Source of the DNA: a virus
DNA: 33,339 nucleotides
Reading direction: 5' to 3' (one strand)
IMG/VR virus record: IMGVR_UViG_3300027896_000133
Location: 1 to 33,339 of that record
Shown: positions 1 to 17,932 of the stretch, piece by piece
How positions within the stretch are numbered: position 1 is the stretch's first letter
Layout: each line of letters begins with the position of its first letter
Notes under the pieces: generated by a model
What the model saw: the letters and a program-made list of their open reading frames with translations, nothing else
The model's database searches: none
What the model was told of the DNA's origin: nothing
Program-made: the position numbers and the translations under genes

Positions 1-2107
1 CCAATGCCGAGGGCGAACCTCTTGTATATAAAACTCCGGCATAATCGGTACGCAAACTTTGATTAACCCAACAGGCGAAAGTGATTGCCGTTGCGCCGTT
101 ATAGAAGGAAGTTCCACCGCCTACCGTTCCTGACTGGTTTGAGAAGACTCCAGAATACAAAGCATCACCCGGCACCAGTACCTTATTGAATATGGACGCA
201 ACATTATTGCTTTGATTCTTATACCATCGGGAGAAATTATTAGTGTTGTACTGTTGTGACACCTTAATCTCACCGGCTGTAACATAAGGGAAGAGCCCAT
301 CTATGTAGACTTTATTCACAGCATCGTTCGTAGAGACTGGGTTTCCTACCTTCAGATTGTTTATGGTAATTTGACGAGTAAGTTCGGTAGGCTGTACAGA
401 ATTAGTGGCATCTATGCGGGCGGTGGGGTCTGTCGCGCCACCGGAACTAGACGCTATTGCAGCACCATTGTACGTAAGAGAACCATCTGCGGCCTGCGCC
501 ATCTTACCGTTCCCGATGTAAATAGAATTACTGCCGACGACGTATATACTCCTGAACGGGAAGTTGGAAGAGCCCAGGTCCACTGTATTACTGGAGGTTG
601 GGATTATACTGCCCGCAACGCTAAGCGTTCCGTTACTGATCAGTACATTGCCGAACAATCGAATCCCGCCACCAGCATCAACGGTGAACTCTCCTATGAT
701 CGAACTCGTGCGATAATTACCAGATGACCACACGTAACTATTATCATGTGCCGCGTGCGCATTCCATCCTCCAGCATGTGACGCTACTCCGCTCGCGGTA
801 GTAGAATAGCCCTCTGCGTGCGACCCATAAGCTCCGCTGGCTACAGTAAAAAGCCCCTCGGCGTGAACACCTACATCACCACTTGCCGTAGTTGAATATC
901 CTTCTGCGTGGGATGATGAACCGCTCCCAATACTTCGGTATCCTTCTGTGTGAGACGACATGCCGCTGGCTACAGTTGCATACCCGTGCGCTGTCGCATT
1001 GTCCTGGCTGGCTGTTGATATTCCCATCGCGAACCGTACCACATTTGTAATGTGCATCCCACCCATATTCAGATTGCCAGTCATCTTGTTGCCACCGTTC
1101 ACCTGCAGGAAGTTGTTGCTCACTGCCGCCCCTGTAATCAGCCCCGCACCCTCTAACAATCCAACTCTTCCCTGAGCATTCGTTCCTGCTATATATGCCG
1201 CTTCTGTTCTGTTGCTTGTGGCAGTGTTCAAGGCTATACTTGCCGTATTAGTCTCAACTATTCCAACACGACTTTGAGCATTTGTCGCGGCAATGTAGGA
1301 GGCCTCTGTGCGATTACTTGTTGAGGTGTTCTGTCCTACTGTGGCAAAGCCATTGGACACTGAAGAGCCTGTGATCAAACCCAGCAGGCTTGCAGACGTT
1401 GCCGCCCTTTCGTTTGTCAATGTCACCTGAACAGCTGGCGACAGTTTTCCAGAATCTATCGTACCATTGACAATGTTAGATCCATTCAAAGTTGTTGCCA
1501 GATTAAAAAGATTAGTGTTGACCCAGTTTGTCACAGAGGTGGCATCTATAGAAGCCTGATTCCATTTCTGTGTCTGGTTCTCGACACCCACAAGACGGGT
1601 GTTAAGGTTGGTCACGTCGTTTGTAGAGGACCATGGCACCAGCACTCCTGGCATAACAGCATAGGTCGATTGAAAATCATTGGAGTACCAGACATTCGTT
1701 CCAACATCTGTCCAGTTGGTAGAAGCAACAGCCACAACCAGCCAATTCGTCCAAGTGTCTTCAGCATCATAACTTTTCTCAATGATGTAACTCATTACAC
1801 CATCTTTGGGAGTCCAATAGACTTTCACAGCATTAGTCTTGCTTACTCCCCCAGTCCAGTTAATCCAAGTAGAAGATGACACCGGAAGGCGTCCCTGCAG
1901 ATTTGTTCCACTGACACGATACCATGCTTGATAGGAACCATTAGTATAAGTGCCACCATTCGTGTTGGCAGAATTGATGCCTGAAATGGCAGACCAAGTG
2001 CCCACACTCACATCATTGTAGAAGACCGTTTTGGAATACGTTCCTGCCCCAGCAAGAACCGAAAGACTGATTCCCAACACCAGAAAGAAGGCCATTATCT
2101 TTTTCAT
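1..2107 (-). CDS. tail fibre / adhesin-like protein with signal peptide, YadA-like repeats and lectin-like domain (C-terminus cut by window edge)
   Basis: I translated this frame from the ATG at 2107 down to base 2: 702 codons without a stop, continuing past the left edge. The start overlaps the preceding stop by ATGA. Residues 1-19 look like a Sec signal peptide (KK, then a hydrophobic core, ending SVLA). Two 34-residue repeats follow at about 263 and 297 (core SNRTEAxYIAxTNAQxRVG). About 374-448 holds five roughly 14-residue repeats of the SHAEGYSTTASG type, as in YadA-like trimeric adhesin heads and phage fibres. A STNDAVNKVYID segment near 595 is typical of fibre stalks. From about 650 the chain resembles a LamG/concanavalin-like lectin (ITFACWVN, then YAGVLYTRG). 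Role inferred: trimeric receptor-binding fibre at the end of the tail module. The signal peptide is odd for a protein assembled in the cytoplasm. Confidence 0.82.
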   Translation of the reverse strand, partial: MKKIMAFFLVLGISLSVLAGAGTYSKTVFYNDVSVGTWSAISGINSANTNGGTYTNGSYQAWYRVSGTNLQGRLPVSSSTWINWTGGVSKTNAVKVYWTPKDGVMSYIIEKSYDAEDTWTNWLVVAVASTNWTDVGTNVWYSNDFQSTYAVMPGVLVPWSSTNDVTNLNTRLVGVENQTQKWNQASIDATSVTNWVNTNLFNLATTLNGSNIVNGTIDSGKLSPAVQVTLTNERAATSASLLGLITGSSVSNGFATVGQNTSTSNRTEASYIAATNAQSRVGIVETNTASIALNTATSNRTEAAYIAGTNAQGRVGLLEGAGLITGAAVSNNFLQVNGGNKMTGNLNMGGMHITNVVRFAMGISTASQDNATAHGYATVASGMSSHTEGYRSIGSGSSSHAEGYSTTASGDVGVHAEGLFTVASGAYGSHAEGYSTTASGVASHAGGWNAHAAHDNSYVWSSGNYRTSSIIGEFTVDAGGGIRLFGNVLISNGTLSVAGSIIPTSSNTVDLGSSNFPFRSIYVVGSNSIYIGNGKMAQAADGSLTYNGAAIASSSGGATDPTARIDATNSVQPTELTRQITINNLKVGNPVSTNDAVNKVYIDGLFPYVTAGEIKVSQQYNTNNFSRWYKNQSNNVASIFNKVLVPGDALYSGVFSNQSGTVGGGTSFYNGATAITFACWVNQSLRTDYAGVLYTRGSPSAL

Positions 2108-2813: not shown

Positions 2814-3227
2814 TCAGACTTCGCCCACAATATATTTCTTCCAATAGTTCCTGATTTTGTCATTCTGGCGACTCTTGGCACAAGGTGAAAGTCCCTTTGT
2901 GTTGTCTCTCGTATCCACACACTGTGTCACCATTGAAATTATCCACATGTTCTTTTCACTGTCAGGCTGAAGTTGTTTCACCTTGTCTTCAATCTCTGCC
3001 ACGGGTGTTCTGTCTAGCGGAATGAGTCGCTGTGGTTTCTTTTCTGTTATAGCAGAAACGACTTTAGGCTCCGACTCCTTATCCAGCCACGGAAGATTTC
3101 TAGGGCAGGAGAAGTCAACATCGTCAGGAGACATTGCTGTCCTGAACTTTCTTCCACCAGCTTTGTCACGACACCTTCCACAGTGAGCACCAGACTTACA
3201 ATGAAATGTCTCTGTAAATTTGTTCAC
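2814..3227 (-). CDS. small cysteine-containing tail-module protein, GTG start
   Basis: An upstream GTG at 3275 would give 153 aa, but the GTG at 3227 overlaps the previous stop as GTGA, the overlap style used through this operon. I prefer that start, giving 137 aa. The N-terminal region has a CxxxxxCxxC motif (CKSGAHCGRC) followed by DKAGGRKFR, which looks like a small metal-binding or disulfide knot; more cysteines come later (FSCP, TQCVD, SPCAKS). The middle is charged and probably helical (PVAEIEDKVKQLQPDSEKN). It follows the 42-cysteine tail protein directly, so the two may work together. Function unknown. Confidence 0.65.
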   Translation of the reverse strand: MNKFTETFHCKSGAHCGRCRDKAGGRKFRTAMSPDDVDFSCPRNLPWLDKESEPKVVSAITEKKPQRLIPLDRTPVAEIEDKVKQLQPDSEKNMWIISMVTQCVDTRDNTKGLSPCAKSRQNDKIRNYWKKYIVGEV

Positions 3228-4807
3228 GAAATCACCAGCGTTCCTGATGTACAGCCACCGGCTCCACCAGAGCACGTATCACCTGTTAGGGTGTATGCCT
3301 GCTCCCCTGTTGGATCACAAGGGGAGTACCAAGAGACAACATTGATGTCACAGCTGTTTTCACAGGCGGAAGGACAATGAGTGCATTTTGCAAGTAATCC
3401 TGTCAAAGTCCAATATCCTGTAGCTGGAATATACGTTAAAGATACATTAACATGAGTAGTGCTGTCTAAACATCCAGAGATAAACCATGTACACTCCTCA
3501 GTAACATTAGTGACTGTAAGTGCCGACAGCACCATACAGTCAAAAGTTATATTGTAATTAAGTACCAGCGGCTCACAGCAGTCATCTGTACAGAGTTGAC
3601 TTGTGGTGCAATCTCCCTCGTCACAAGCTGTACCTGTACTTGCCGTCACTCCACTGAAATGATCTGCTACTTCTGCTGTTAGTTTGTGAGTGCAGTAACA
3701 AGCTCCTCCGTACTTAACACACAAATTTGGGGTGGTGTAATCAGTGCAAACACTATGATCAAAAAGAGTAATGAACAACGCCTGCGAAATGATAAGATGA
3801 CAAGTAGGATCGTCGCACTTGGTAAACTTGTGGTTAAGCCCAATACCGTCATCGTCCCAAACAGCTACGTTCATGGCATAGTTTTCATAATAAGGTAAGT
3901 CGGGTTCAGTAAAAGGATACTCGCCCGTAAATCCTACATCACACACTTCTTGATCTATGTGAGCGCTTCTGCTGTTGATCGCAATAAATGGATAGTGACT
4001 AGTGACCCACTCTGGGCCTTCAAAGGCGTATCCACAAGGTTGAAAGGAATCAACTACGTAGTCGCCAGCACCGGCAGTGACAGTTATTACATCACCACCA
4101 CCTCTATCCAATGTGCCTGTCCACGTACAGCAGTCAGCATGACACTCATGGCTTTCTGTAGGTTCTGACTTTGTCAGGCATATAGTAATCGCGGCCTCTA
4201 TTAAAGCACCAGTAGTGTCGTACCAGTCAAAGGTGACGAGTACCAGACTTGGCCCCACTCCGGGATCGTCTGAACCACACCAGCAACAATCACGAGTAAA
4301 CTCACAACCTTCACTTAAAGTGGTCGCTTGTCTGTCGGAGTTCATCGAAGTAGGATTTATGTCCATCAATTCGTAGCAGTGAACACCATCATTTACTACC
4401 AGTCCCTCTATCACTGTAATTCCATAAAACGCTAATACGGATGCCGGTATGGCCAGAACATTTCCATTGTCGCAATTACAAACCATAAAGCAGTAGTAGT
4501 CTTCTACGGCATCCTCACAACTAGCGGGAGGAGCCGCTATCTCAACAGTCAGACCGGGAGTGATTGTTTCGTTTGTCGGCTCAAAGTAGTAACACCACCC
4601 GCTCCATCCATTGTAGTGCACTCGAATAATTGGACTAAATTCATTCGGGACAATGAAACCACTTCCCATACGAGGGTCAGTCCAGTCGGTCATGCCACAA
4701 GGCTGTACGCAAGGGATGTAGACACTCCTACAGCAACAAGCTCCCATCAACTCACCACTGGCTGTTATGGCCAGAAGTTCACCAGCACTATTAGCCTGTA
4801 AGGTCAT
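3224..4807 (-). CDS. cysteine-rich distal tail protein
   Basis: The longest frame opens with TTG at 4813, but the ATG at 4807 overlaps the preceding TGA (ATGA) and is the better start: 527 aa. I count 42 cysteines, about 8 percent, in pairs and clusters (GACCCR, CFMVCNC, DCCWCG, HADCCTW, DDCCEP, CTHCPSACENSC). No enzyme motif is visible. The sequence between clusters is rich in T, V, Y, G and D and looks like beta-sandwich modules. The spacing suggests many disulfides or several metal sites. Position after the tape measure and two other tail genes, before the fibre, supports a distal tail or baseplate role. Many disulfides would need oxidation outside the cytoplasm, or assembly after lysis. 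Confidence 0.72.
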   Translation of the reverse strand: MTLQANSAGELLAITASGELMGACCCRSVYIPCVQPCGMTDWTDPRMGSGFIVPNEFSPIIRVHYNGWSGWCYYFEPTNETITPGLTVEIAAPPASCEDAVEDYYCFMVCNCDNGNVLAIPASVLAFYGITVIEGLVVNDGVHCYELMDINPTSMNSDRQATTLSEGCEFTRDCCWCGSDDPGVGPSLVLVTFDWYDTTGALIEAAITICLTKSEPTESHECHADCCTWTGTLDRGGGDVITVTAGAGDYVVDSFQPCGYAFEGPEWVTSHYPFIAINSRSAHIDQEVCDVGFTGEYPFTEPDLPYYENYAMNVAVWDDDGIGLNHKFTKCDDPTCHLIISQALFITLFDHSVCTDYTTPNLCVKYGGACYCTHKLTAEVADHFSGVTASTGTACDEGDCTTSQLCTDDCCEPLVLNYNITFDCMVLSALTVTNVTEECTWFISGCLDSTTHVNVSLTYIPATGYWTLTGLLAKCTHCPSACENSCDINVVSWYSPCDPTGEQAYTLTGDTCSGGAGGCTSGTLVIS

Positions 4808-5856
4808 GCGCAATTACTCGCTGTGGTTATATCAACCCAGTCCGTTGAAGCGTCTGCCGGGTCAGGTTCAGTCAAGAAGGTATATTGTAATTTCAGAGTG
4901 GTTGTGTTGTATCTGAATCCACGTATAGGCCACTGAATATCTCCACCTTTCCACAGAGCTTCTATGCTTCCAATGTGGGCAGGAACAGCACCAGCAGTAG
5001 GAACCCAAGTCACATAAGCGAGTGGATACATTCTGTCGCCTTGAGCATCTGGATATAAGGCATGGAATATGGCAGTGACAGCAGACGGAGCACTTGCTGA
5101 ATCAAGTTCAATGCAAATATATCCCGAGGCTGTGATTGTAATTTCAGCACTCTTGCCGGAGTACATTGCTCCATCACCAGAGGCTACTGTCAACGGAATA
5201 ATAGCTCCACCAATCAACGTCCTTCCACCACGCACTATGATATTGTTCAGATCCTTCTGTGTGACATTGTAATGTCGTGAGGAATCTCCACCTCCTGTGA
5301 CAATGTCTCCTCCATACCAAAGAGGTTCCAAACTGGAGATGATGGAAAGATCGGTATCCCAATTCACTTTTATCAAAGGAAAGTAAACCGTCCCAATTTG
5401 AGAAGCGTCCGGGAACGTAGTCAGGAACACGGGCTCTACTGTAACAGCACTTTCATCCCTCTTGGCCATTATCCAACCATCAGCATTGACACCGGTGACT
5501 TCAAAAAGATCCTCATACAATTCAGATATTCCGGTGACTGCTCCTGTCTTCCCTTTGTTGCACAGAATAGAAGCGATGTCATTTGACCACCGGCCACAAT
5601 GTACGAAAACAGAATAGTCTGGACTGGCATTTATGGCATAGCCTGTGAAGTGATGAAAGTACTCCTCGACATCTGCCGCATAGGGAACAGAAGTATTCAG
5701 GTTGCCTGAAGTGTGCTTGCTGGTAGTGCCCTGCCCATCAACAGCAATGGCCTGCAGACCGTTTACAACCTTTACCATTCGGTTGTATTGTGTCACACTG
5801 ACCTTACTCTTGGTGGAGTTCAGTCCTTTAATAGGTTGGAATACTTGTCCACTCAT
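4804..5856 (-). CDS. distal tail protein with internal duplication
   Basis: 350 aa. The start shares one base with the upstream stop (TAATG). The N-terminal part (NSTKSKVSVTQYNRMVKVVNGL) looks like a helical segment of the kind found in phage tail and collar proteins. Two copies of a 60-residue unit can be aligned by eye: 127-185 (GWIMAKRDES, then VYFPLIKVNW, then SSLEPLWYGGDI) and 245-307 (GYICIELDSA, then MYPLAYVTWV, then GSIEALWKGGDI). Repeated beta modules of this kind are common in tail appendages. The specific family is not recognised. Confidence 0.65.
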   Translation of the reverse strand: MSGQVFQPIKGLNSTKSKVSVTQYNRMVKVVNGLQAIAVDGQGTTSKHTSGNLNTSVPYAADVEEYFHHFTGYAINASPDYSVFVHCGRWSNDIASILCNKGKTGAVTGISELYEDLFEVTGVNADGWIMAKRDESAVTVEPVFLTTFPDASQIGTVYFPLIKVNWDTDLSIISSLEPLWYGGDIVTGGGDSSRHYNVTQKDLNNIIVRGGRTLIGGAIIPLTVASGDGAMYSGKSAEITITASGYICIELDSASAPSAVTAIFHALYPDAQGDRMYPLAYVTWVPTAGAVPAHIGSIEALWKGGDIQWPIRGFRYNTTTLKLQYTFLTEPDPADASTDWVDITTASNCA

Positions 5857-10255: not shown

Positions 10256-10581
10256 GCCGGCGTCCTCACTGTCATTGTCTTATGATGTGTCACGGCATCA
10301 GCAGCATTAGTGTCTAGGATGTTGACTACTCTGTAAGTCGCTCCCCCATAGACGACATTATTCTCAAGACCCACCACAGTATTTCCATCACAGAAGAACT
10401 TGTGTGTGGCCATGATACCAGACCGACTAAGTATGGCCTGCTGTTCGTTCGACAGTGTGTTGATCCGACAAGGGATATTCGATCCCGTAGTCGTCAAGGC
10501 AACAGACTGGCCTCCGTAGGCATCCACTGTAATTGTTCTGGACTGTATGTCCATCACACTATTGAGTAATCCGGTAAACAT
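10252..10581 (-). CDS. head-tail adaptor / head closure protein
   Basis: 109 aa, RBS GGGAGTCTT overlapping the end of the glycosyltransferase gene. It has the expected size and pattern of the phage head-tail joining family related to SPP1 gp16: an N-terminal MDIQSRTITVDAYGGQ strand pair, then CRINTLSNEQQAILSRSGIMATHKFFCDGN, then a final strand set with YRVVNILDTN and HHKTMTVRTPA. Neighbours on both sides are connector and tail proteins, which supports the call. Confidence 0.72.
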   Translation of the reverse strand: MFTGLLNSVMDIQSRTITVDAYGGQSVALTTTGSNIPCRINTLSNEQQAILSRSGIMATHKFFCDGNTVVGLENNVVYGGATYRVVNILDTNAADAVTHHKTMTVRTPA

Positions 10582-11726
10582 TAAAGACTCCCTTTAATCT
10601 GCTCAAGGACAGGCTTCCAATAGTTCTTGACAACATTATCTATCTGCCAAGGAATTGTTCTCCTGCTGATTTCTTTCCTGTCCACAGAAAGCCGATCAAC
10701 ATACGCTGTGTGCAGTTGATTCACCACATCGTCTGGATCAACCATAAACTGAAAGGCACCCGGGACGGTGGCATACATATTTCCCTTTGTGATCTTCCTG
10801 TAGAAGCCTATTTCATTTGCTGCCGCGAATGCTGGCACAATAGTTGGACAACCAGAAGCCTGCGCCTCCATGATAGGTAATCCAAATCCTTCTCCGTAGC
10901 AGCAGTTGAGATGAACGTCACTGGCATTGTAGGCAAGGTTGAGGTAGTCTTCCCCAAATTGTCCTGTGCTGTATTCCCACTGCGTGACGTAGAACACGCT
11001 GCCATCTTTCACTCCGTAAAGTTTGGCCATCTCTATCAGATCATTGCCACCTGTAAAGTATCCTGTGATGTCTGTGTGTAAATAAAGAAGAGTGTCTGGT
11101 TGTTGTTCGTGAAACTTCTTCCAAGCCTGAAATATAGCTTGATAGTTCTTTCTGCCACCGGCATTTGCTGAAACAACATTGACCAGAAATTTACCTTCAA
11201 GATCCTTGTTGATCAGTTTGCCAAACTCTTTCTTGGCTTCTGCTACACTGCCCATTGGAAAGAACATTCGAGAGTCGTAAGCACAAGGCATCAAGAAAGG
11301 ACTGAGTCCAGCGTCCTGCAACATCTTCACACCCCAGTTAGTCGGAGCCATCGTCCACTTGCAGGCTTGAAGAGGCTTCACATTCCTAACCATCATTGGA
11401 TCACTGTCAACAGGAACCCAAGCACACCAGTTTAATTTGGAAGCTATTTCTGGTGCTATGGAGAAGGCATCAATCCAAGAAATTACTAGATCAGCACCCC
11501 AGCGATCAGCGTGAGTCTTGACCATGTCAATTCCATACTTGCCGTGATGTCCAGAGTCGGGGAACAGTTTAATTCCTTCCCAGACAAGGGTGGTCAAAGG
11601 AGCTCCTGTCACGCAACTGACTGCAACCTCATGGCCGAGTTGCTGAAAACGACGCAACAGGAGCTTTGTCTGCGAGCCGTAACCTGTAGGAACCATAGGC
11701 GGAACACTGTGCCAGAGTATTTTCAA
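10581..11726 (-). CDS. GT4-like glycosyltransferase in the head-tail module
   Basis: 381 aa. The start is TTG: it overlaps the upstream stop as TTGA and has AGGAG eight bases before it. The N-terminal Rossmann half carries a Gly motif (MVPTGYGSQTKLLLRRFQQLGHEV), and the C-terminal half has NAGGRKNYQAIFQAW and the GT4 nucleotide-sugar motif YGEGFGLPIMEAQASGCP with the E-x7-E pair. It should transfer a sugar from an NDP-sugar with retention of configuration. Lying between connector and adaptor genes and co-translated with them, it more likely modifies virion proteins (or host wall) than DNA. Related enzymes occur in structural modules of some actinobacterial phages. Acceptor unknown. Confidence 0.88.
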   Translation of the reverse strand: MKILWHSVPPMVPTGYGSQTKLLLRRFQQLGHEVAVSCVTGAPLTTLVWEGIKLFPDSGHHGKYGIDMVKTHADRWGADLVISWIDAFSIAPEIASKLNWCAWVPVDSDPMMVRNVKPLQACKWTMAPTNWGVKMLQDAGLSPFLMPCAYDSRMFFPMGSVAEAKKEFGKLINKDLEGKFLVNVVSANAGGRKNYQAIFQAWKKFHEQQPDTLLYLHTDITGYFTGGNDLIEMAKLYGVKDGSVFYVTQWEYSTGQFGEDYLNLAYNASDVHLNCCYGEGFGLPIMEAQASGCPTIVPAFAAANEIGFYRKITKGNMYATVPGAFQFMVDPDDVVNQLHTAYVDRLSVDRKEISRRTIPWQIDNVVKNYWKPVLEQIKGSL

Positions 11727-12688
11727 ATGCTAACTCTCCTGTACTGATTCAAGTCGTATTTGTGATTTTCAATGGCAGACATGACAACACCCTTGGCTGT
11801 TGCGCGTAAAGAATAACTGTAGTCGCCTATGCTCTCACTCCGTAGATTGCTGTTGAGTTTTGTACTGGCAAGGCAGTCCTGTATAACCTGATTTGCTATC
11901 AAAGCCAAACCGGCAGGAAGTGTGCCATCTGAAGCAGGGCTATCAGAAGGCATCGTGTAGCCAGCTGTGAACCAAACAAAGATGTTCTTGGAACCAGGAG
12001 GAAATCCATAGCTAAATGTCGGAGGTGTTGTCCCAGGCTGTACTCCACTCATTCTGTTAGGCTGTTGGCTTTGTGGGAAGATGTCCCAGCTAGGGAATTG
12101 TTCGCTGTTGATAATCTCTATCTGATCCTCAAACAGAATCTTGACAGGGACAGGCGAACTAGGGACGACAAGGTCAGCAGAAGAATTGCCAAGAGCATCC
12201 AGACCGTACAAGGGTCTCAGCATAGATGTTGGCAGAATGGAATAGTCAGCACTGAGCACAGTACAATTCCATCCAGTCACCGCATTGATAGCCATGAGCA
12301 TTGTGCCAATCGTTTTGTAAGTAGCAACGGGAAGCGTTGTCTGTGTCTCAATTCCCAATATGGAGACTTCTGTCAAGATGATATTTGTACCATCCACAGA
12401 CACCGTAGCAAAGGCCACAGTAGAAGAAGGATTGCTGATCGTAGCAACAGATCTCGTCCCAACGCTGACCTGGACTAAGGCTGTCACAGGATACTCATTC
12501 AGTCGGAGGACAGGAGAACCTAATCCGTCAAACCACATCTTGTAAGAAGTGGTAGTAAGAGTGCGTCGTATGTAACGCTCTATTGCCGCACTGGCCTCTG
12601 TGATCAGAACAGAAATCAAAGCATCCTGACTGGAGTTGGTTATTCCAGCATACGCCTTGAATCTAGTTGTTGTGGTTAATGCGCTCAT
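11723..12688 (-). CDS. head-tail connector protein (gp6-like), enlarged
   Basis: The frame opens at 12715, but the ATG at 12688 has a proper RBS (GAAGGAGAACG) and begins MSALTTTTRFKAYAGI, the usual start of head-tail connectors; I take this start, 321 aa. The first helices (SSQDALISVLITEASAAIERYIRRTL) and the TTTSYKMWFDGLG-PVLRLNEYPV segment match the gp6-like family, as does the end (PAGLALIANQVIQDCLASTKLNSNLRSESIGDYSYSL). The family is often 100-200 aa; here a beta-rich insertion of more than 100 residues separates the two halves. It would form the ring below the portal. Confidence 0.82.
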   Translation of the reverse strand: MSALTTTTRFKAYAGITNSSQDALISVLITEASAAIERYIRRTLTTTSYKMWFDGLGSPVLRLNEYPVTALVQVSVGTRSVATISNPSSTVAFATVSVDGTNIILTEVSILGIETQTTLPVATYKTIGTMLMAINAVTGWNCTVLSADYSILPTSMLRPLYGLDALGNSSADLVVPSSPVPVKILFEDQIEIINSEQFPSWDIFPQSQQPNRMSGVQPGTTPPTFSYGFPPGSKNIFVWFTAGYTMPSDSPASDGTLPAGLALIANQVIQDCLASTKLNSNLRSESIGDYSYSLRATAKGVVMSAIENHKYDLNQYRRVSI

Positions 12689-12854
12689 CGTTCTCCTTCT
12701 TAATAGCCTTGGCAAGCCTCCTGACAGCCTCTATACGAGGTCGCAAGGAATTAACTACACCCTTGCCGCCACCGGACTCCTCCGAGCCTTTCTCGGTGGT
12801 TTTACAAGACGGGCAACTCTCTATCATCTTGCAGGCTGGAGGAGTCCGGATCAT
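12663..12854 (-). CDS. possible small CxxC protein coinciding with repeat copy C
   Basis: 63 aa (starts MIRTPPACKMIESCPSCK). It starts directly after the preceding stop, with GAGG seven bases upstream of the ATG, and ends inside the start of the connector gene, the overlap habit of this operon. A CxxxxxCPSC motif could bind zinc. Against it: the second half is encoded by repeat copy C, so the frame may be open by chance; the repeat family elsewhere is noncoding. Possible but unproven. Confidence 0.4.
   Translation of the reverse strand: MIRTPPACKMIESCPSCKTTEKGSEESGGGKGVVNSLRPRIEAVRRLAKAIKKENDERINHNN
12726..12804 (-). repeat. dispersed intergenic repeat, copy C (diverged)
   Basis: The left end (12726-12746) is identical over 21 bases to copy D, including GCCTCTATACGAGGTCGC. 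On the transcribed strand it begins TAAAACC, like copies B and D, but the 5' part has been replaced by a GC-rich segment with a CCGAG-AAAGG-CTCGG hairpin. It is somewhat shorter (61 bases between conserved blocks instead of 69-70). Confidence 0.7.
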
Positions 12855-12855
12855 G

Positions 12856-13101
12856 TTACTGCCTCATGGTTATGGTTACTGGTTTTCCTTTGATCAGATA
12901 AACGCGACGATTCTTCATTCCGTCATTGAAGAGGATAGCATTGCCAATGAGACGGATGCTCATTACTGCCACACCACCAGACAGAACTGCTGTGACGTTC
13001 AAAGGCTTCACTTCTTCAACAACAGGCTTCACTTCTTCAACAGCCTGCTCAACAGGTTTTACTTCTTCATCAGATATTTTGGTTCTTACCATCTTAGCCA
13101 T
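12856..13101 (-). CDS. small protein with EEVKP repeats, unknown function
   Basis: 81 aa, RBS ACGAGG ending three bases beyond the previous stop. Residues 12-33 contain three copies of an acidic EEVKPV unit, visible in DNA as a short tandem repeat near 13009-13072. The second half (NVTAVLSGGVAVMSIRLIGNAILFNDGMKNRRVYLIKGKPVTITM) looks like a small beta domain. Its place between head-decoration-like genes and the connector suggests a minor head component. No family recognised. Confidence 0.6.
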   Translation of the reverse strand: MAKMVRTKISDEEVKPVEQAVEEVKPVVEEVKPLNVTAVLSGGVAVMSIRLIGNAILFNDGMKNRRVYLIKGKPVTITMRQ

Positions 13102-13104
13102 GAT

Positions 13105-13560
13105 TTACCTCGTGTATATGATAATCTGTCCGCTCTTTGCGTTGCCTGTATTCGTAGCAGACAAAGTGAGCAGATCGTTTATTGCTACCTTTGAGACGTT
13201 CGTCACAGAACCGTCTGTGAATCGAATTGCCGGAACGATTGTCGTAACTGTATTGGAGGCAAGAAGTGCTCCCTGTCCTGCCAGTATGTCAATTCCACTT
13301 CCGTCTTTCAGAGTCGCTGTGTAGGAACCTGTCGGTGCGATAGTAATGCTCGGATTAAAGACAATCCGAAGGATCTCACCTTTAACATAAGTGTCACCAA
13401 CACCCAGCACAAAGTTGTTCGTTCCAGAAGTCCATGTGAACGTATTCTTCACCACTGGTCCAGAAGCGTCTTTTGTCTGAACCACTGTGCCAACGTCAGC
13501 AGACAAAGCCACTGAACTGGCAAGCACAAGGACTGCTATTGATTTGAAAAAAGTATTCAC
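13105..13560 (-). CDS. exported small beta-rich protein with signal peptide, head-gene cluster
   Basis: 151 aa. GTG start preceded by AGGAGG at a short four-base spacing. Residues 1-20 are a convincing Sec signal peptide (K at 6, hydrophobic IAVLVLASSVALS, small residues at -3 and -1). The mature part is rich in T, G, S, V and N, without cysteine, and beta-like (SGTNNFVLGVGDTYVKGEILRIVFNPSITIAPTG). It lies among capsid-associated genes. It could be a decoration or head-fibre protein, or a periplasmic/surface protein made late. Function unknown; the signal peptide is the notable feature. Confidence 0.7.
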   Translation of the reverse strand: MNTFFKSIAVLVLASSVALSADVGTVVQTKDASGPVVKNTFTWTSGTNNFVLGVGDTYVKGEILRIVFNPSITIAPTGSYTATLKDGSGIDILAGQGALLASNTVTTIVPAIRFTDGSVTNVSKVAINDLLTLSATNTGNAKSGQIIIYTR

Positions 13561-13577
13561 ACATCCTCCTAGAGTAA

Positions 13578-13607
13578 GTGGAGAGAAGGAGTCAACCTTC
13601 TCTCCAC
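13578..13607 (-). promoter_or_regulatory. perfect 12-bp intergenic hairpin
   Basis: GTGGAGAGAAGG (13578-13589) and CCTTCTCTCCAC (13596-13607) pair perfectly around a six-base loop in the 58-base gap between two signal-peptide genes. No U-run follows on the transcribed strand, so it fits an mRNA-stability or processing hairpin better than a terminator. The RBS of the next gene lies just downstream. Confidence 0.75.
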
Positions 13608-13618
13608 CTTGTTTTCAA

Positions 13619-14104
13619 TTACGGACTGGTTGTGACGCCAGTGAGAATGTACCTGCCTGTACCAAAAGGCGTGAAGACATACGTGTTGGTCTTCCCGTCT
13701 GCAGCGAGGCAAGTGTTGGTCAACTTAGCACCAGAAGAGACAGCCATGTTGTCCACTGTCAAGTTCGTGATCGCCGCACCGTTAATGGCAGATGCCGCAG
13801 TCCCAACTCTCAAGTTTGCCGCACTGTAATTTGTGCCAGCAAGCAAGTTGAGAGCGTTGATCGCAGTGCCAGATGGTGAAGCAGTGCCCGTGAGATTCGT
13901 CAACAACTCGCCGTTTCCAGCGATGTGGGTGATTGATCCATGGGCATTGATGACAAGACTAGTCTGTCCATTCGTCGGACAGTACCAGATCATGTCCCCC
14001 TGCCCACTCGGGCCAGAGTACTTGACGGCCACATCAGGACCGGCAAAACAAACTGACAAACCTGATATTAGGATTGCCAGTGTAAGCATTATTTTCTGGA
14101 ACAT
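13619..14104 (-). CDS. exported fibre-like protein with signal peptide, head-gene cluster
   Basis: 161 aa with a strong RBS (AAGGAGGAC). Residues 1-21 form a Sec signal peptide (MFQKIMLTLAILISGLSVCFA, cleavage predicted before GPD); the cysteine at 19 is not in a good lipobox. The mature part contains HIAGNGELLTNLTGTA and GAAITNLTVDNMAVSSGAKLTN, the 'GxGxxLTNLT' and 'ITNLTVDNM' style of trimeric phage fibres and decoration spikes. Located two genes after the major capsid gene, it may be a head fibre. Why it carries an export signal is unclear. Confidence 0.7.
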   Translation of the reverse strand: MFQKIMLTLAILISGLSVCFAGPDVAVKYSGPSGQGDMIWYCPTNGQTSLVINAHGSITHIAGNGELLTNLTGTASPSGTAINALNLLAGTNYSAANLRVGTAASAINGAAITNLTVDNMAVSSGAKLTNTCLAADGKTNTYVFTPFGTGRYILTGVTTSP

Positions 14105-14132
14105 GTAAATGTCCTCCTTAGTTTTCCTTCAA

Positions 14133-14170
14133 GGAGGCTGTCCGCATTAACCATGCTGTAGACAGCCTCC
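14133..14170 (-). promoter_or_regulatory. perfect 10-bp intergenic hairpin
   Basis: GGAGGCTGTC (14133-14142) pairs perfectly with GACAGCCTCC (14161-14170), loop 18 bases, in the 85-base gap after the head protein gene at 14190-14675. No T-run follows. It belongs to a series of similar hairpins between capsid-cluster genes. Confidence 0.75.
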
Positions 14171-14189
14171 CATCCAGAAATTGTTTTGC

Positions 14190-14675
14190 TTAGTACGCTG
14201 TGGGCATGTTTTCGGCACCACGAGCATAGCGAGGCTCATACAATTCGTATATGAGATTCGATACCTCCGTTGCCGTCGTGATGTCCGCCAAGTCCAAGCG
14301 AATGTACTGGTTCTCTGATTTGAAGGTGTCAGAGTCTAGCATGTCAGCACGGACTTCAAAGATGTACTGAGCTGTCTTGTTCTGAATGCCTGCCGAGCAA
14401 GTTGCCGCCGTGACTTTCGTCAGAGTGTCGCCTGCCAGAACATCCTCATTCTTCCAGTACTCGCTGTATGCCAGCGCCGTTGAGCAGGTCGCAGTCGTCC
14501 CTTGTTTCAGGGTGACAGCTCCACCGACCACAGCCGCATTACTGCAAGCCACGTTCAGTATAATTCTGCACTTAGCATAGTTGCGCATATTGACACCATT
14601 GGCGGCAGTCTGAAGACCACCAGTTGCATCAATCGCGTCCTTGATCGTAATCTTGGTATTTTCTACTAACCTCAT
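14190..14675 (-). CDS. head-associated protein next to the major capsid gene, possible decoration protein
   Basis: 161 aa, RBS AAGGAGATACG. It begins MRLVENTKITIKDAIDATGGLQTAANGVNMRNYAKCRIILNV and is beta-rich. The stretch VVGGAVTLKQGTTATCSTALAYSEYWKNEDVL and the end LIYELYEPRYARGAENMP have the look of small structural proteins that follow capsid genes in many siphophage genomes. No export signal. The family is not recognised with certainty; the decoration role is inferred from position and from the probable high expression signalled by strong RBS and flanking hairpins. Confidence 0.65.
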   Translation of the reverse strand: MRLVENTKITIKDAIDATGGLQTAANGVNMRNYAKCRIILNVACSNAAVVGGAVTLKQGTTATCSTALAYSEYWKNEDVLAGDTLTKVTAATCSAGIQNKTAQYIFEVRADMLDSDTFKSENQYIRLDLADITTATEVSNLIYELYEPRYARGAENMPTAY

Positions 14676-14700
14676 CGTCGTATCTCCTTGTGTGAAACTC

Positions 14701-14747
14701 CCTGCCTGAACCTACTGCTCCTATTTGAGCCGTCCATTTCAGGCAGG
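14701..14747 (-). promoter_or_regulatory. perfect 10-bp hairpin after the major capsid gene
   Basis: CCTGCCTGAA (14701-14710) and TTCAGGCAGG (14738-14747) are perfect inverted repeats around 27 bases that hold a smaller GCTC/GAGC pair. It sits in the 99-base gap downstream of the capsid stop. It could mark a processing point or partial attenuation that protects capsid mRNA. Confidence 0.7.
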
Positions 14748-14774
14748 ATAGTTTATTCTCTTTTACTGATTAAC

Positions 14775-16166
14775 TTACGCTGTCGCCTTGAACTGGACAA
14801 CAGGGCTGAGCGTCGAACCGAATGCCGGTGTCAACGGAGCAACGGACTCATTCTGACCATCAATGTACTTGGTCATACGGAAGGCAGTCTGCCCGAGGTC
14901 GAACTTCAGGTGAACGGACTGGGCAATCATCGGCCCGCTCTGATCATCCGCTATGCAATAGTCGCTGAAATCAACCAGCGATACGCAACCAGCCGTTCCA
15001 AGAGCCGGGACCTTTTCAGTCCAGACAATCGGATAGCCCCAAAGGGACTGACCGGGTTCGTTCTGTACGCCACCAGCGAACTGGTTGATGAACACCGGAG
15101 CTCCACCCGTGCCTGCCGCAATGTTGAACATTGGGAGCTGTGGGAACACCGTCTGGTTCATAATCCATGCAACGCTGTTCTTGTTCTTGATACGCAGACG
15201 GGCAAACATAGCCGTGCTGTTTTCGAGAACGAACGTAGTTGCATCCTGCCCTGACTGGAACGCTACCTGAATAAGGCACTTGGCGTTATTGATACCGACA
15301 GGCTGAGAAGCACCCTTGCCACTCAGGAATGTCAGATCTTCTTTCCAACCAATCGCTTCGCCGAACTTCGGAATGAGCCAGCTGCCGAGAGAAACAGGGG
15401 ACCACTTGATCCATTCTTCGCTGGCATAACCCATTGCCGTCATCTTCTTGAGTTTGAACTCAAGTTGTTCGAGCTTCGGCTTGCTTTCTGCACCGGCAGC
15501 ATTCTCATCATCAAAGTAAATCTTGATGCCACCGTATACCGTACCAGTGCTGTGATCAGTGTCACGCAGGTAAGGAATGCGGAGGAGCTGAGTGCCCATG
15601 GTTACACGATTCGCCCGAGGACGAACAATGCTGTTTTCAAGGCTGGTGTTCTGAATGAGCTGGCTTGCCGCTGAGAATATCAGATAGCCACCCGACTCAT
15701 CATCTCCGACCATCATGCCATCGCCTGCGGCTTTGGTGATCAGTTTCTCAGAACGCTCCCTTGCCTTCATCAACAGCTCCGGCTCACGTCCGCCACGAGT
15801 TGCCTTCTGAACATCAACAGCAAACCGGCCAAAGGCATAGTTTACTTCATCCTTGGACAGATCCTTCGCTGACTTGGTGTTGCCGGGAAGGTATCCGTTC
15901 GTAGGATCCTCGTCCGTCATATCCTTCAGGGAGATGTGAGACATCTTGCTCTTAATCTCGCCAATGTCTTTGAGTGCTGCTTCGACTGCCTTTGTTGCGG
16001 CTTCAGAAGCGGCCTTTTCGATGGCCTTGGTAGCAGTGTCATCTGACTCTGATACTTCCTGACCAACACCCTTGGCAACTATGTCCTTGGCAGTGTCATC
16101 GTCCACTTCAATCACAGTACCGACCGCGTGTCCCATCCAACTCTTCACAATTTTGAACTTCTTCAT
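14775..16166 (-). CDS. major capsid protein, HK97 fold
   Basis: The frame opens at GTG 16193, but the ATG at 16166 has the better RBS (AAAAGGAAAAG) and begins MKKFKIVKSWMGH: 463 aa. Residues about 35-75 are an Ala/Lys/Glu coiled coil (ATKAIEKAASEAATKAVEAALKDIGEIKSKM), as in the delta/scaffold domain removed by the prohead protease. The main part has the expected marks: GGYLIFSAASQLIQNTSLENSIVRPRANRV, LEFKLKKMTAMGYASEEWIKWS, WKEDLTFLSGKGASQPVGI, AWIMNQTVFPQL and VDFSDYCIADD. It follows the protease in the operon and is flanked by hairpins. Cleavage near the end of the coiled coil is inferred. Confidence 0.92.
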   Translation of the reverse strand: MKKFKIVKSWMGHAVGTVIEVDDDTAKDIVAKGVGQEVSESDDTATKAIEKAASEAATKAVEAALKDIGEIKSKMSHISLKDMTDEDPTNGYLPGNTKSAKDLSKDEVNYAFGRFAVDVQKATRGGREPELLMKARERSEKLITKAAGDGMMVGDDESGGYLIFSAASQLIQNTSLENSIVRPRANRVTMGTQLLRIPYLRDTDHSTGTVYGGIKIYFDDENAAGAESKPKLEQLEFKLKKMTAMGYASEEWIKWSPVSLGSWLIPKFGEAIGWKEDLTFLSGKGASQPVGINNAKCLIQVAFQSGQDATTFVLENSTAMFARLRIKNKNSVAWIMNQTVFPQLPMFNIAAGTGGAPVFINQFAGGVQNEPGQSLWGYPIVWTEKVPALGTAGCVSLVDFSDYCIADDQSGPMIAQSVHLKFDLGQTAFRMTKYIDGQNESVAPLTPAFGSTLSPVVQFKATA

Positions 16167-16234
16167 TTGCTTTTCCTTTTCTGTTTGTAGCACTCATCGT
16201 GGAGTACTAATTAGTTAGTTTGAACTTTCGTCAG

Positions 16235-16282: not shown

Positions 16283-17932
16283 TTACATCAACTTGCCTGT
16301 TTTCCTACTCAACGCTTTTTCTACTGCTTCGCTGATTCCCTTTGCCAACTGTTCTGCCGTCGGAGGGACGTACAGCACTTTGACACTGGGTGCTGGTTCA
16401 ACTACCTTGATAACAGGAGTGACTGATTTCTCTTCTTTCTTGGAAGAGTCTTTCTTCAGTCCCAAACTTGCCCTCAATTGCCAACCCCACTTAGCATGGG
16501 CGTCCTGTCTGTCAGCCAAGAAGTTTGCTATCCCCTGCTCCCTGTCCGCTGTGGCTACGTCGAACGCTGCTTTGATTTCGTCAATCAACTTCTCATTCAC
16601 CACCAACAGATCAACAGCCAAGGCTCTTGGGTCTGTAGCTGGGTCAGGAGTCTCTGTACTGGCTGACATCTGTACAAGGTTGGCAGGAACAGATTCCCCC
16701 AGCTTCCTTATGTTCTCAGCCATAGGGTCAATAGCATTCCAAGCGTCGTCGTATATTTCACCGAACAGGCTGTGCCATTCTGTAAAGTCGGGACCAACCA
16801 CATTCCAATGAGCTGTGTGGGCCTGAGCATAGAAGGCAAACGTGTTGGTGAGAACTCCTGTCAGAGCTGGGACAAGGCTGGATTCTTCTGTCACATCTTC
16901 CAATGCCTTCTCCTCTTTCTTTACAGGCTTCATCTTGCCCTTGCACCCTTCTGCCGAGCAGTCAGTCCCAGCAACAACCTTGCGCTTCATGTCACACACA
17001 GGACACTGACACATTTCAGCAACAGGCTTTTCCTTGGAATCAGAACCATAACCACCGTCTTCATCCTTGCCGTTCTCCATGCCCATGCCAAATTCCTTGA
17101 TGATGACTGGGTGACCATTCCTTGAGAGGACTGTAATAGACTTCAAATGCGTTTCTTCTTTCTTTTCAGAAGTCAGGTCAAACTTATCAATATGCTTCTC
17201 TTCAACCTTCTTCTCCTCTTCCTTCTTGTTGATCACTTCCGGTTCCCAGCCCAACTGCTTGATCACCTTGTCGGCAAGACTGAACCCTTTGACAACGTGA
17301 AGCATTTCAGCATCAATGTTGCAAGGAACAGAGACGAAACTATGCTCCAGCAAAACTCCGCCAGTGATAATCCGGATGCGAGACTTGGCTGCAACGTCTT
17401 TGCTGAACTCCTTCCAGCTTGACTGCAACTTGTTGGCTACGGTGTCCCAGTCACGGTGTCCAGGCTTGGTGAATGTAGTGGGAACAATTCCTATTGAGCT
17501 TGCCTTCATGTGGCCTTGCTCAACCAAGTGCCAGACCACGTTGGCAAGTGTGCCTTCGCCAGTGTTAGCGTGATTAGTCAGAGCCTTGATGCCAAAGTCG
17601 TCTGCTTCGATCATTTCGTCGGAGCCTATTGGAAGCAGACTGTAGTTGTGGTTGACGAGGACGTGCATGTACTTGCGAAATTCATTCAGGTTCAAACCTT
17701 TGGGCACGACGATCTCGTTGTCCCTGTCCATCGTCCTCGCTGAAACGTACTTCAACGATTGCCGCTTGGAGCTGTCTATCTGGTTGACTTTGCTCTTCTC
17801 ACTGTAGGTTGAGCGGTGCATTTCCAGATCGTCTGTTTTGATTCCTGAATCTTTTGCCACGTGTACAAAAGCATCCTTCAACCAATCCGGACTGAACTCT
17901 GCCATCTCTGCTATCTTTACTACCTTCTTCAT
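16283..17932 (-). CDS. prohead protease (S78-like) fused to zinc-ribbon and Dps/ferritin-like domain
   Basis: 549 aa with RBS GTGAGGACATG. Residues 50-225 are the HK97-family prohead protease: H95 in VLVNHNYSLLPIGSD, S145/S146 in MKASSIGIVP and E196 in LLEHSFVSVPCNIDA fit the expected catalytic sites. A charged linker follows. Residues 308-330 (CQCPVC, then DCSAEGC) look like a zinc ribbon. Residues 353-492 resemble Dps: AHTAHWNVVGPDFTEWHSLFGE, then AIDPMAENIRKLGE, then DRQDAHAKWGWQLRASL. H375, H387, D402 and E406 match the spacing of ferroxidase ligands of E. coli Dps; the Dps Asp at H387+4 is Gly, with Glu next to it. A Lys/Glu tail ends the chain. The usual protease is about 200-250 aa, so the fusion more than doubles it. 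Confidence 0.9.
   Translation of the reverse strand: MKKVVKIAEMAEFSPDWLKDAFVHVAKDSGIKTDDLEMHRSTYSEKSKVNQIDSSKRQSLKYVSARTMDRDNEIVVPKGLNLNEFRKYMHVLVNHNYSLLPIGSDEMIEADDFGIKALTNHANTGEGTLANVVWHLVEQGHMKASSIGIVPTTFTKPGHRDWDTVANKLQSSWKEFSKDVAAKSRIRIITGGVLLEHSFVSVPCNIDAEMLHVVKGFSLADKVIKQLGWEPEVINKKEEEKKVEEKHIDKFDLTSEKKEETHLKSITVLSRNGHPVIIKEFGMGMENGKDEDGGYGSDSKEKPVAEMCQCPVCDMKRKVVAGTDCSAEGCKGKMKPVKKEEKALEDVTEESSLVPALTGVLTNTFAFYAQAHTAHWNVVGPDFTEWHSLFGEIYDDAWNAIDPMAENIRKLGESVPANLVQMSASTETPDPATDPRALAVDLLVVNEKLIDEIKAAFDVATADREQGIANFLADRQDAHAKWGWQLRASLGLKKDSSKKEEKSVTPVIKVVEPAPSVKVLYVPPTAEQLAKGISEAVEKALSRKTGKLM

Follow-up and report, generated by a model that had tools for sequence, protein, structure and literature searches.

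A conserved pair of signal-peptide proteins, most likely late, Sec-exported and of virion type, encoded in the capsid gene block of a siphovirus lineage

Tailed phages normally complete their particles in the cytoplasm, and proteins such as T4 Hoc and T5 pb10, which are not known to carry a signal peptide, are made and assembled there as well. Virion coat proteins with cleavable signal peptides are familiar from filamentous phages, whose pIII and pVIII are exported by the host and whose particles are assembled in the membrane and extruded. In T4 Hoc the capsid-binding end is reportedly conserved and the outer domains vary (PMC10385173). T5 pb10 attaches in vitro to capsids that are already complete, with an affinity in the picomolar range (PMC5292684), providing a precedent for docking after assembly. 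Two further proteins represent exported products of tailed phages: T5 Llp, encoded next to a receptor-binding protein gene, acts from within the periplasm to block FhuA (PMC9586334), and lambda Lom is a signal-peptide protein encoded between tail genes that goes to the host membrane (PMC12309495). Thus, with Lom, exported phage proteins from late operons are already known; in the open-licence literature, we found no tailed phage described as dressing its particle with Sec-exported proteins.

The window analysed here, a stretch of 33,339 nucleotides, is a siphovirus contig from IMG/VR whose minus strand carries the late operon in the order TerS, TerL, portal, MuF, protease, MCP, deco, SP2, SP1, small charged ORF, connector, glycosyltransferase, tail genes and an end fibre-like gene. 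Since the gene at the contig end is cut off, the contig is incomplete. An earlier inspection had placed two signal-peptide proteins, here SP2 and SP1, two and three genes after the major capsid gene; both ORFs and this position, following MCP and deco, were verified, and the strand, which it had left out, is minus. The features of this block are as follows.

14775..16193, minus strand: MCP, major capsid protein of HK97 type (PF05065, 1.5e-35; phrog_10, 1.3e-37)
14190..14675, minus strand: deco, decoration-like, 161 aa, without signal peptide, MCP neighbour and cassette marker (homologues 47-69% identical)
13619..14104, minus strand: SP2, 161 aa, made up of a signal peptide, a segment conserved at the mature start and a variable fibre-like remainder (ATG start, SD AAGGAGG)
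14042..14104, minus strand: SP2 signal peptide MFQKIMLTLAILISGLSVCFA, predicted cut after residue 21 (or 22), from the n-h-c parse
13961..14035, minus strand: SP2 conserved mature start, [YW][ST]GPxxQGD segment (46% mean identity over 8 homologues, versus 21% for the remainder)
13105..13560, minus strand: SP1, 151 aa, signal peptide and predicted beta-sandwich domain (GTG start, SD AGGAGG)
13498..13560, minus strand: SP1 signal peptide MNTFFKSIAVLVLASSVALSA, predicted cut after residue 21, from the n-h-c parse
12856..13101, minus strand: small charged ORF, cassette member after SP1 (counterpart at the equivalent place in L002, L009, L012, L013, L016 and L018)
11723..12715, minus strand: head-tail connector, last cassette member (PF05135, 3.5e-06; phrog_442, 6.8e-21)

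Several other genes of the operon deserve mention in their own right. A glycosyltransferase gene (10581-11726, minus strand; phrog_2170, 7e-29) sits between the connector and head-closure genes, and virion or exported proteins might be its glycosylation targets. The head-maturation protease gene (16283-17932, minus strand) also encodes, at residues 357-491, a fused Dps/ferritin-like domain (PF00210, 8.8e-15); the protease counterpart in the related contig L002 had no match to phrog_3636, the family matched by this domain in the window. The MuF-type protein of L002 (L002:29-1405) carries an apparent intein exactly at the conserved HPNC|RC site, and the window's copy has none. In the tail region, 3224-4813 (minus strand) encodes a very cysteine-rich protein of 529 aa without signal peptide and without a Pfam or PHROG match. 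Two scans of bacterial genome contigs with MCP and deco alignments found no bacterial-genome relative. No integrase or repressor look-alike was present among the gene products examined from this incomplete contig, making lysogenic conversion unlikely.

A home-made n-h-c scorer, not SignalP, was used for the signal peptides and parsed SP2 into MFQK, IMLTLAILISGLSV and CFA^GPDV, and SP1 into MNTFFKS, IAVLVLASSVA and LSA^DVGT, the caret marking the predicted cut. Residue shuffles reached the real score 25 times in 20000 for SP2 and 251 times in 20000 for SP1. All 15 homologues (7 of SP1 and 8 of SP2, from 8 contigs) scored at least 30.6, and each had a basic n-region, an h-region of 11-15 residues and small residues at -3/-1 shortly before the conserved mature segment, so that the sequence hallmarks of Sec/SPase I substrates (basic n-region, h-region of 7-15 residues, small -3/-1) were found in every one; these proteins are mutually related and do not represent 15 independent events, and for some an internal ATG was picked as the start. 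By comparison, only 2 of 148 annotated structural-region genes from 11 reference viruses, a small sample consisting mostly of phages matched through MCP or TerL, scored 30 or more. One of these, a 142-aa signal-peptide protein in the head cluster of the Acinetobacter phage Abau_Attikon1 (Vieuvirus; L036:15957-16385), is convincing; the other, encoded after MCP in the Caulobacter phage Kronos, has a signal-like start with an unconvincing parse. Among the window's late structural genes scored, SP2 and SP1 were the only ones to parse from their own start apart from SP3 at the contig end, which scored higher. Both signal peptides of the original prediction were thereby confirmed, with cuts predicted after residue 21 (21 or 22 in SP2).

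Could these starts be chance hydrophobic N-termini, the product of wrong start codons, or the result of bacterial DNA joined to phage? The scorer does pass about 1% of SP1 shuffles; however, the contrast between homologues and controls, the good SDs and the presence of the cassette in contigs from many records argue against an artefact, which we regard as very improbable. Conservation pointed in the same direction. Mean identity among SP1 proteins was 20.8% in the signal region and 40.2% in the mature part, while among SP2 proteins it was 20.5% in the signal region, 46.2% over the next 26 residues and 20.6% in the remainder. The signal property is thus kept with little of the sequence being kept, and it ends just before a conserved mature segment, a pattern that gives good support for a functional signal under selection. 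Judged from these sequence features, SP1 and SP2 are very probably exported from the cytoplasm.

An uncleaved hydrophobic N-terminus could instead serve as an anchor, either in the inner membrane or buried in a virion assembled in the cytoplasm. Cleavage is a prediction, and in the SP2 proteins of L012, L013 and L014 the best parse has G, not A, at -1. Against this stand the signal-like composition of all 15 N-termini and the expectation that a buried segment should keep its sequence better than 20%, and we consider an anchor rather unlikely. Of the three outcomes originally envisaged, a late surface or periplasmic protein, a virion protein added outside and a virion anchor, the last fits worst, given the short h-region, the small -3/-1 residues and the conserved segment a few residues past the predicted cut in every homologue; the interpretation of cleavable Sec signals on capsid-cluster proteins, on the other hand, was strengthened by their conservation. 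Two other classes of exported protein were ruled out. A lipoprotein of the Llp, Cor or Ltp type does not fit, as SP1 contains zero Cys residues, and in SP2 Cys19 is preceded by L-S-V, with no lipobox [LVI][ASTVI][GAS]C at the cut; nor does a unimolecular spanin, no C-terminal membrane segment having been seen.

Used alone as queries, SP1 and SP2 gave nothing usable in viral contigs and reference phages, with no trustworthy reference-phage match, and neither had a trustworthy Pfam, PHROG or NCBIfam family. Relatives of the locus came from a search with MCP, which found contig L002 (64% best-segment identity), from one with deco, which found L009, L012, L013, L014, L016, L018, L020 and others, and from one with SP1, which found L027, a repeat of L012. 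In every contig extending past a deco at least 43% identical, the order deco, SP2, SP1, small charged ORF, connector was fixed as far as each contig reaches, and contigs belonging to numerous separate records carried the cassette. In L021, whose deco-like gene is far more diverged (25%), no signal-peptide gene lay at that place. Deco adjoined MCP in every relative whose contig reaches that far, and is from this gene position presumably a virion protein. A place beside MCP that is kept across the lineage, one mark of phage capsid decoration or cement proteins, was found for the genes of this cassette.

The SP2 homologues, from L002, L009, L012, L013, L014, L016 and L018, each had a signal parse, and G31, P32, Q35, G36 and G46 were invariant in the alignment. 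Beyond the conserved start the tail changes in length and kind, with whole proteins spanning 147-428 aa and fibre-like repeats in the tails of L013 and L014. This layout, a conserved end followed by a variable part, is comparable to that of T4 Hoc (PMC10385173), and both belong to tailed phages. Unlike Hoc and T5 pb10, to which no sequence match was found, SP1 and SP2 carry signal peptides; and unlike filamentous pIII and pVIII, they are encoded by a tailed phage with an HK97-type capsid that is filled in the cytoplasm.

SP1 homologues were 27-46% identical to the window's SP1, and the one in L002 likewise starts with GTG; their 7-sequence alignment was too diverged to support a pattern scan. 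An AlphaFold2 model from 2 sequences was unusable (pLDDT 39), so the 7-sequence version was used, which gave an N-terminal helix followed by a beta-rich fold (pLDDT 73, pTM 0.66). From this model of moderate confidence, mature SP1 is predicted to be a jelly-roll-like beta-sandwich. Its best match among viral models was the unnamed A0A516MPJ3 (E 2.7e-8, 29% identity, 125 aa), and against the PDB it showed general beta-sandwich similarity of sub-significance (top Z 7.9). Among phage capsid chains, KHP30 (Z 7.8), Pam1 (7.3) and GP4 (6.4) were sub-threshold and tied with unrelated beta-sandwiches. On this model, the resemblance to capsid proteins speaks for a docking role on the particle, and the failure of the cement-like fold matches to stand out from the background that common beta-sandwiches give speaks against it.

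A further candidate relative of SP1 is AZF89954 of the Methanosarcina virus MetMV, which was matched by the SP1 of L009 (E 0.1) and by an SP1-like protein of L023 (E 6e-3), and which scored 19.6 bits with the SP1 profile. The L023 protein is itself a lead: when 1761 ORFs were scored with the SP1 profile it reached E 0.85, and it is otherwise backed by the MetMV match only. AZF89954 lacks a signal peptide and lies directly upstream of the gene for a 522-aa protein that is a probable tail fibre. It resembles SP1 as a weakly similar beta-domain beside a probable fibre, and differs in being signal-free and in belonging to an archaeal virus and a different module. Since it was matched by two SP1-type proteins, the SP1 domain may exist signal-free in a structural setting, although the relationship, read from sequence, is weak to moderate. 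A match of SP1 to Stenotrophomonas QH16 (E 0.2), a protein without signal peptide, is probably due to chance.

Upstream of deco, SP2 and SP1 we found strong stem-loops.

14695-14754, minus strand: stem-loop just before the deco SD (z -5.0)
14132..14171, minus strand: stem-loop in the deco-SP2 gap, immediately ahead of the SP2 SD (z -4.6)
13576..13609, minus strand: stem-loop in the SP2-SP1 gap, immediately ahead of the SP1 SD, with a 14-bp stem (z -3.3 to -4.0)

When the 75 nt upstream of 26 late genes were compared, z fell below -3.9 only for deco, SP2 and SP1, the next value being that of the major tail protein (-2.6). Hairpins recur in the SP2 gap of L002, L009, L012 and L016 and in the SP1 gap of L002, L009 and L012, weakly so in L016 (z -1.7), with differing sequences in both gaps. 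In the window, the SP2 and SP1 hairpins lack a U-tract behind them and so are not plain terminators; they may serve mRNA processing or stabilisation. The restriction of very stable hairpins to these three genes makes the pair look regulated like high-copy virion genes.

The late operon ends with a third signal-peptide gene.

1..2107, minus strand: SP3, more than 702 aa, tail-fibre-like, with signal peptide, running off the contig end (MKKIMAFFLVLGISLSVLAGA^GTYS, score 50.9; phrog_25468, 5.2e-9)

A module of SP3 is 54% identical to the tail spike of Flavobacterium phage immuto and 50% identical to the tail fibre of Verrucomicrobia phage P8625, the latter being without a signal. The conserved-start and variable-tail layout of SP2, the lineage-wide cassette with deco and this signal-bearing fibre-like protein ending the same operon all go beyond the original prediction. 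Another signal-peptide protein gene, adjoining the tail-tube gene, was seen in L016 (L016:8364-8852) and L027 (L027:3308-3739). In the distant phage G002 (39.4 kb; L025:2095-5941, minus strand), four signal-peptide genes, one of 679 aa, lie in a row between a deco-like capsid region and lysis genes, and the tail fibres are signal-free and encoded elsewhere.

The G002 arrangement and the known exported phage proteins Llp and Lom favour a role at the envelope, and the position of the G002 genes beside lysis genes, with signal-free fibres elsewhere, suits such a role better than docking. SP2 and SP1, and SP3 with them, would then act late in the periplasm or at the cell surface, either masking or altering receptors, which would exclude superinfection and spare progeny from binding to siblings or debris, or as adhesins, and presence in the virion would not be needed. 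Exported proteins usually function at their destination, T5 Llp (PMC9586334) and lambda Lom (PMC12309495) are precedents, one signal-peptide gene also lies in the head cluster of the Acinetobacter Vieuvirus, and the variable SP2 tail could track variable receptors. Like SP1 and SP2, Llp is a small exported phage protein, but it is a lipoprotein with a lipobox. Lom shares with them a signal peptide and a gene in the late structural region, but it is an outer-membrane beta-barrel and an accessory gene product of the tail-fibre region, whereas SP1 is a predicted beta-sandwich and SP2 looks fibre-like; no Lom family appeared among the Pfam and NCBIfam matches, and the SP1 model, of moderate confidence, gives a sandwich where a Lom-type protein would form an 8-stranded membrane barrel. 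Neither SP1 nor SP2 showed a lipobox, a C-terminal anchor or a sorting motif, so nothing obvious would retain them at the envelope, and their presence in fixed order in all relatives extending past a close deco is unlike that of typical morons. The fibre- and decoration-type architecture and the stem-loops common with deco point to the particle instead.

Taken together, the core-gene behaviour of SP2 and SP1, the layout of a conserved start plus tip, the hairpins common with deco and the fibre-type SP3 favour the virion, and SP2 and SP1 are most likely late, Sec-exported, virion-type proteins. For the docking of these proteins on released virions we propose the following course; that they are exported and cleaved, what the SP2 start binds and that docking takes place are inferred. 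The host Sec machinery would export both late structural-operon products, signal peptidase I would trim them, and the mature forms would build up outside the cytoplasm in the late phase; at lysis, the conserved SP2 start and/or SP1 would bind the released particle through deco or the capsid, and docked SP2 would display its variable tail as a head fibre. We hold docking at lysis to be the leading though far from assured reading, and action at the envelope is nearly as likely. Still tentative is the broader proposition that a tailed-phage lineage routes its own fibre- and decoration-type proteins via host Sec and dresses its particles outside the cytoplasm at lysis, in a two-compartment assembly.

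What is new here is a lineage-wide, very probably exported pair of virion type within the capsid block that belongs to no family in Pfam, PHROG or NCBIfam and of which we found no description in the open-licence literature. An exported fibre-like pair at this place would mean either that the particle gains a component after export or that a dedicated envelope-acting pair is kept in the core structural operon; and unexplained signal-peptide genes of viral contigs would be worth considering for the role of SP1 and SP2.
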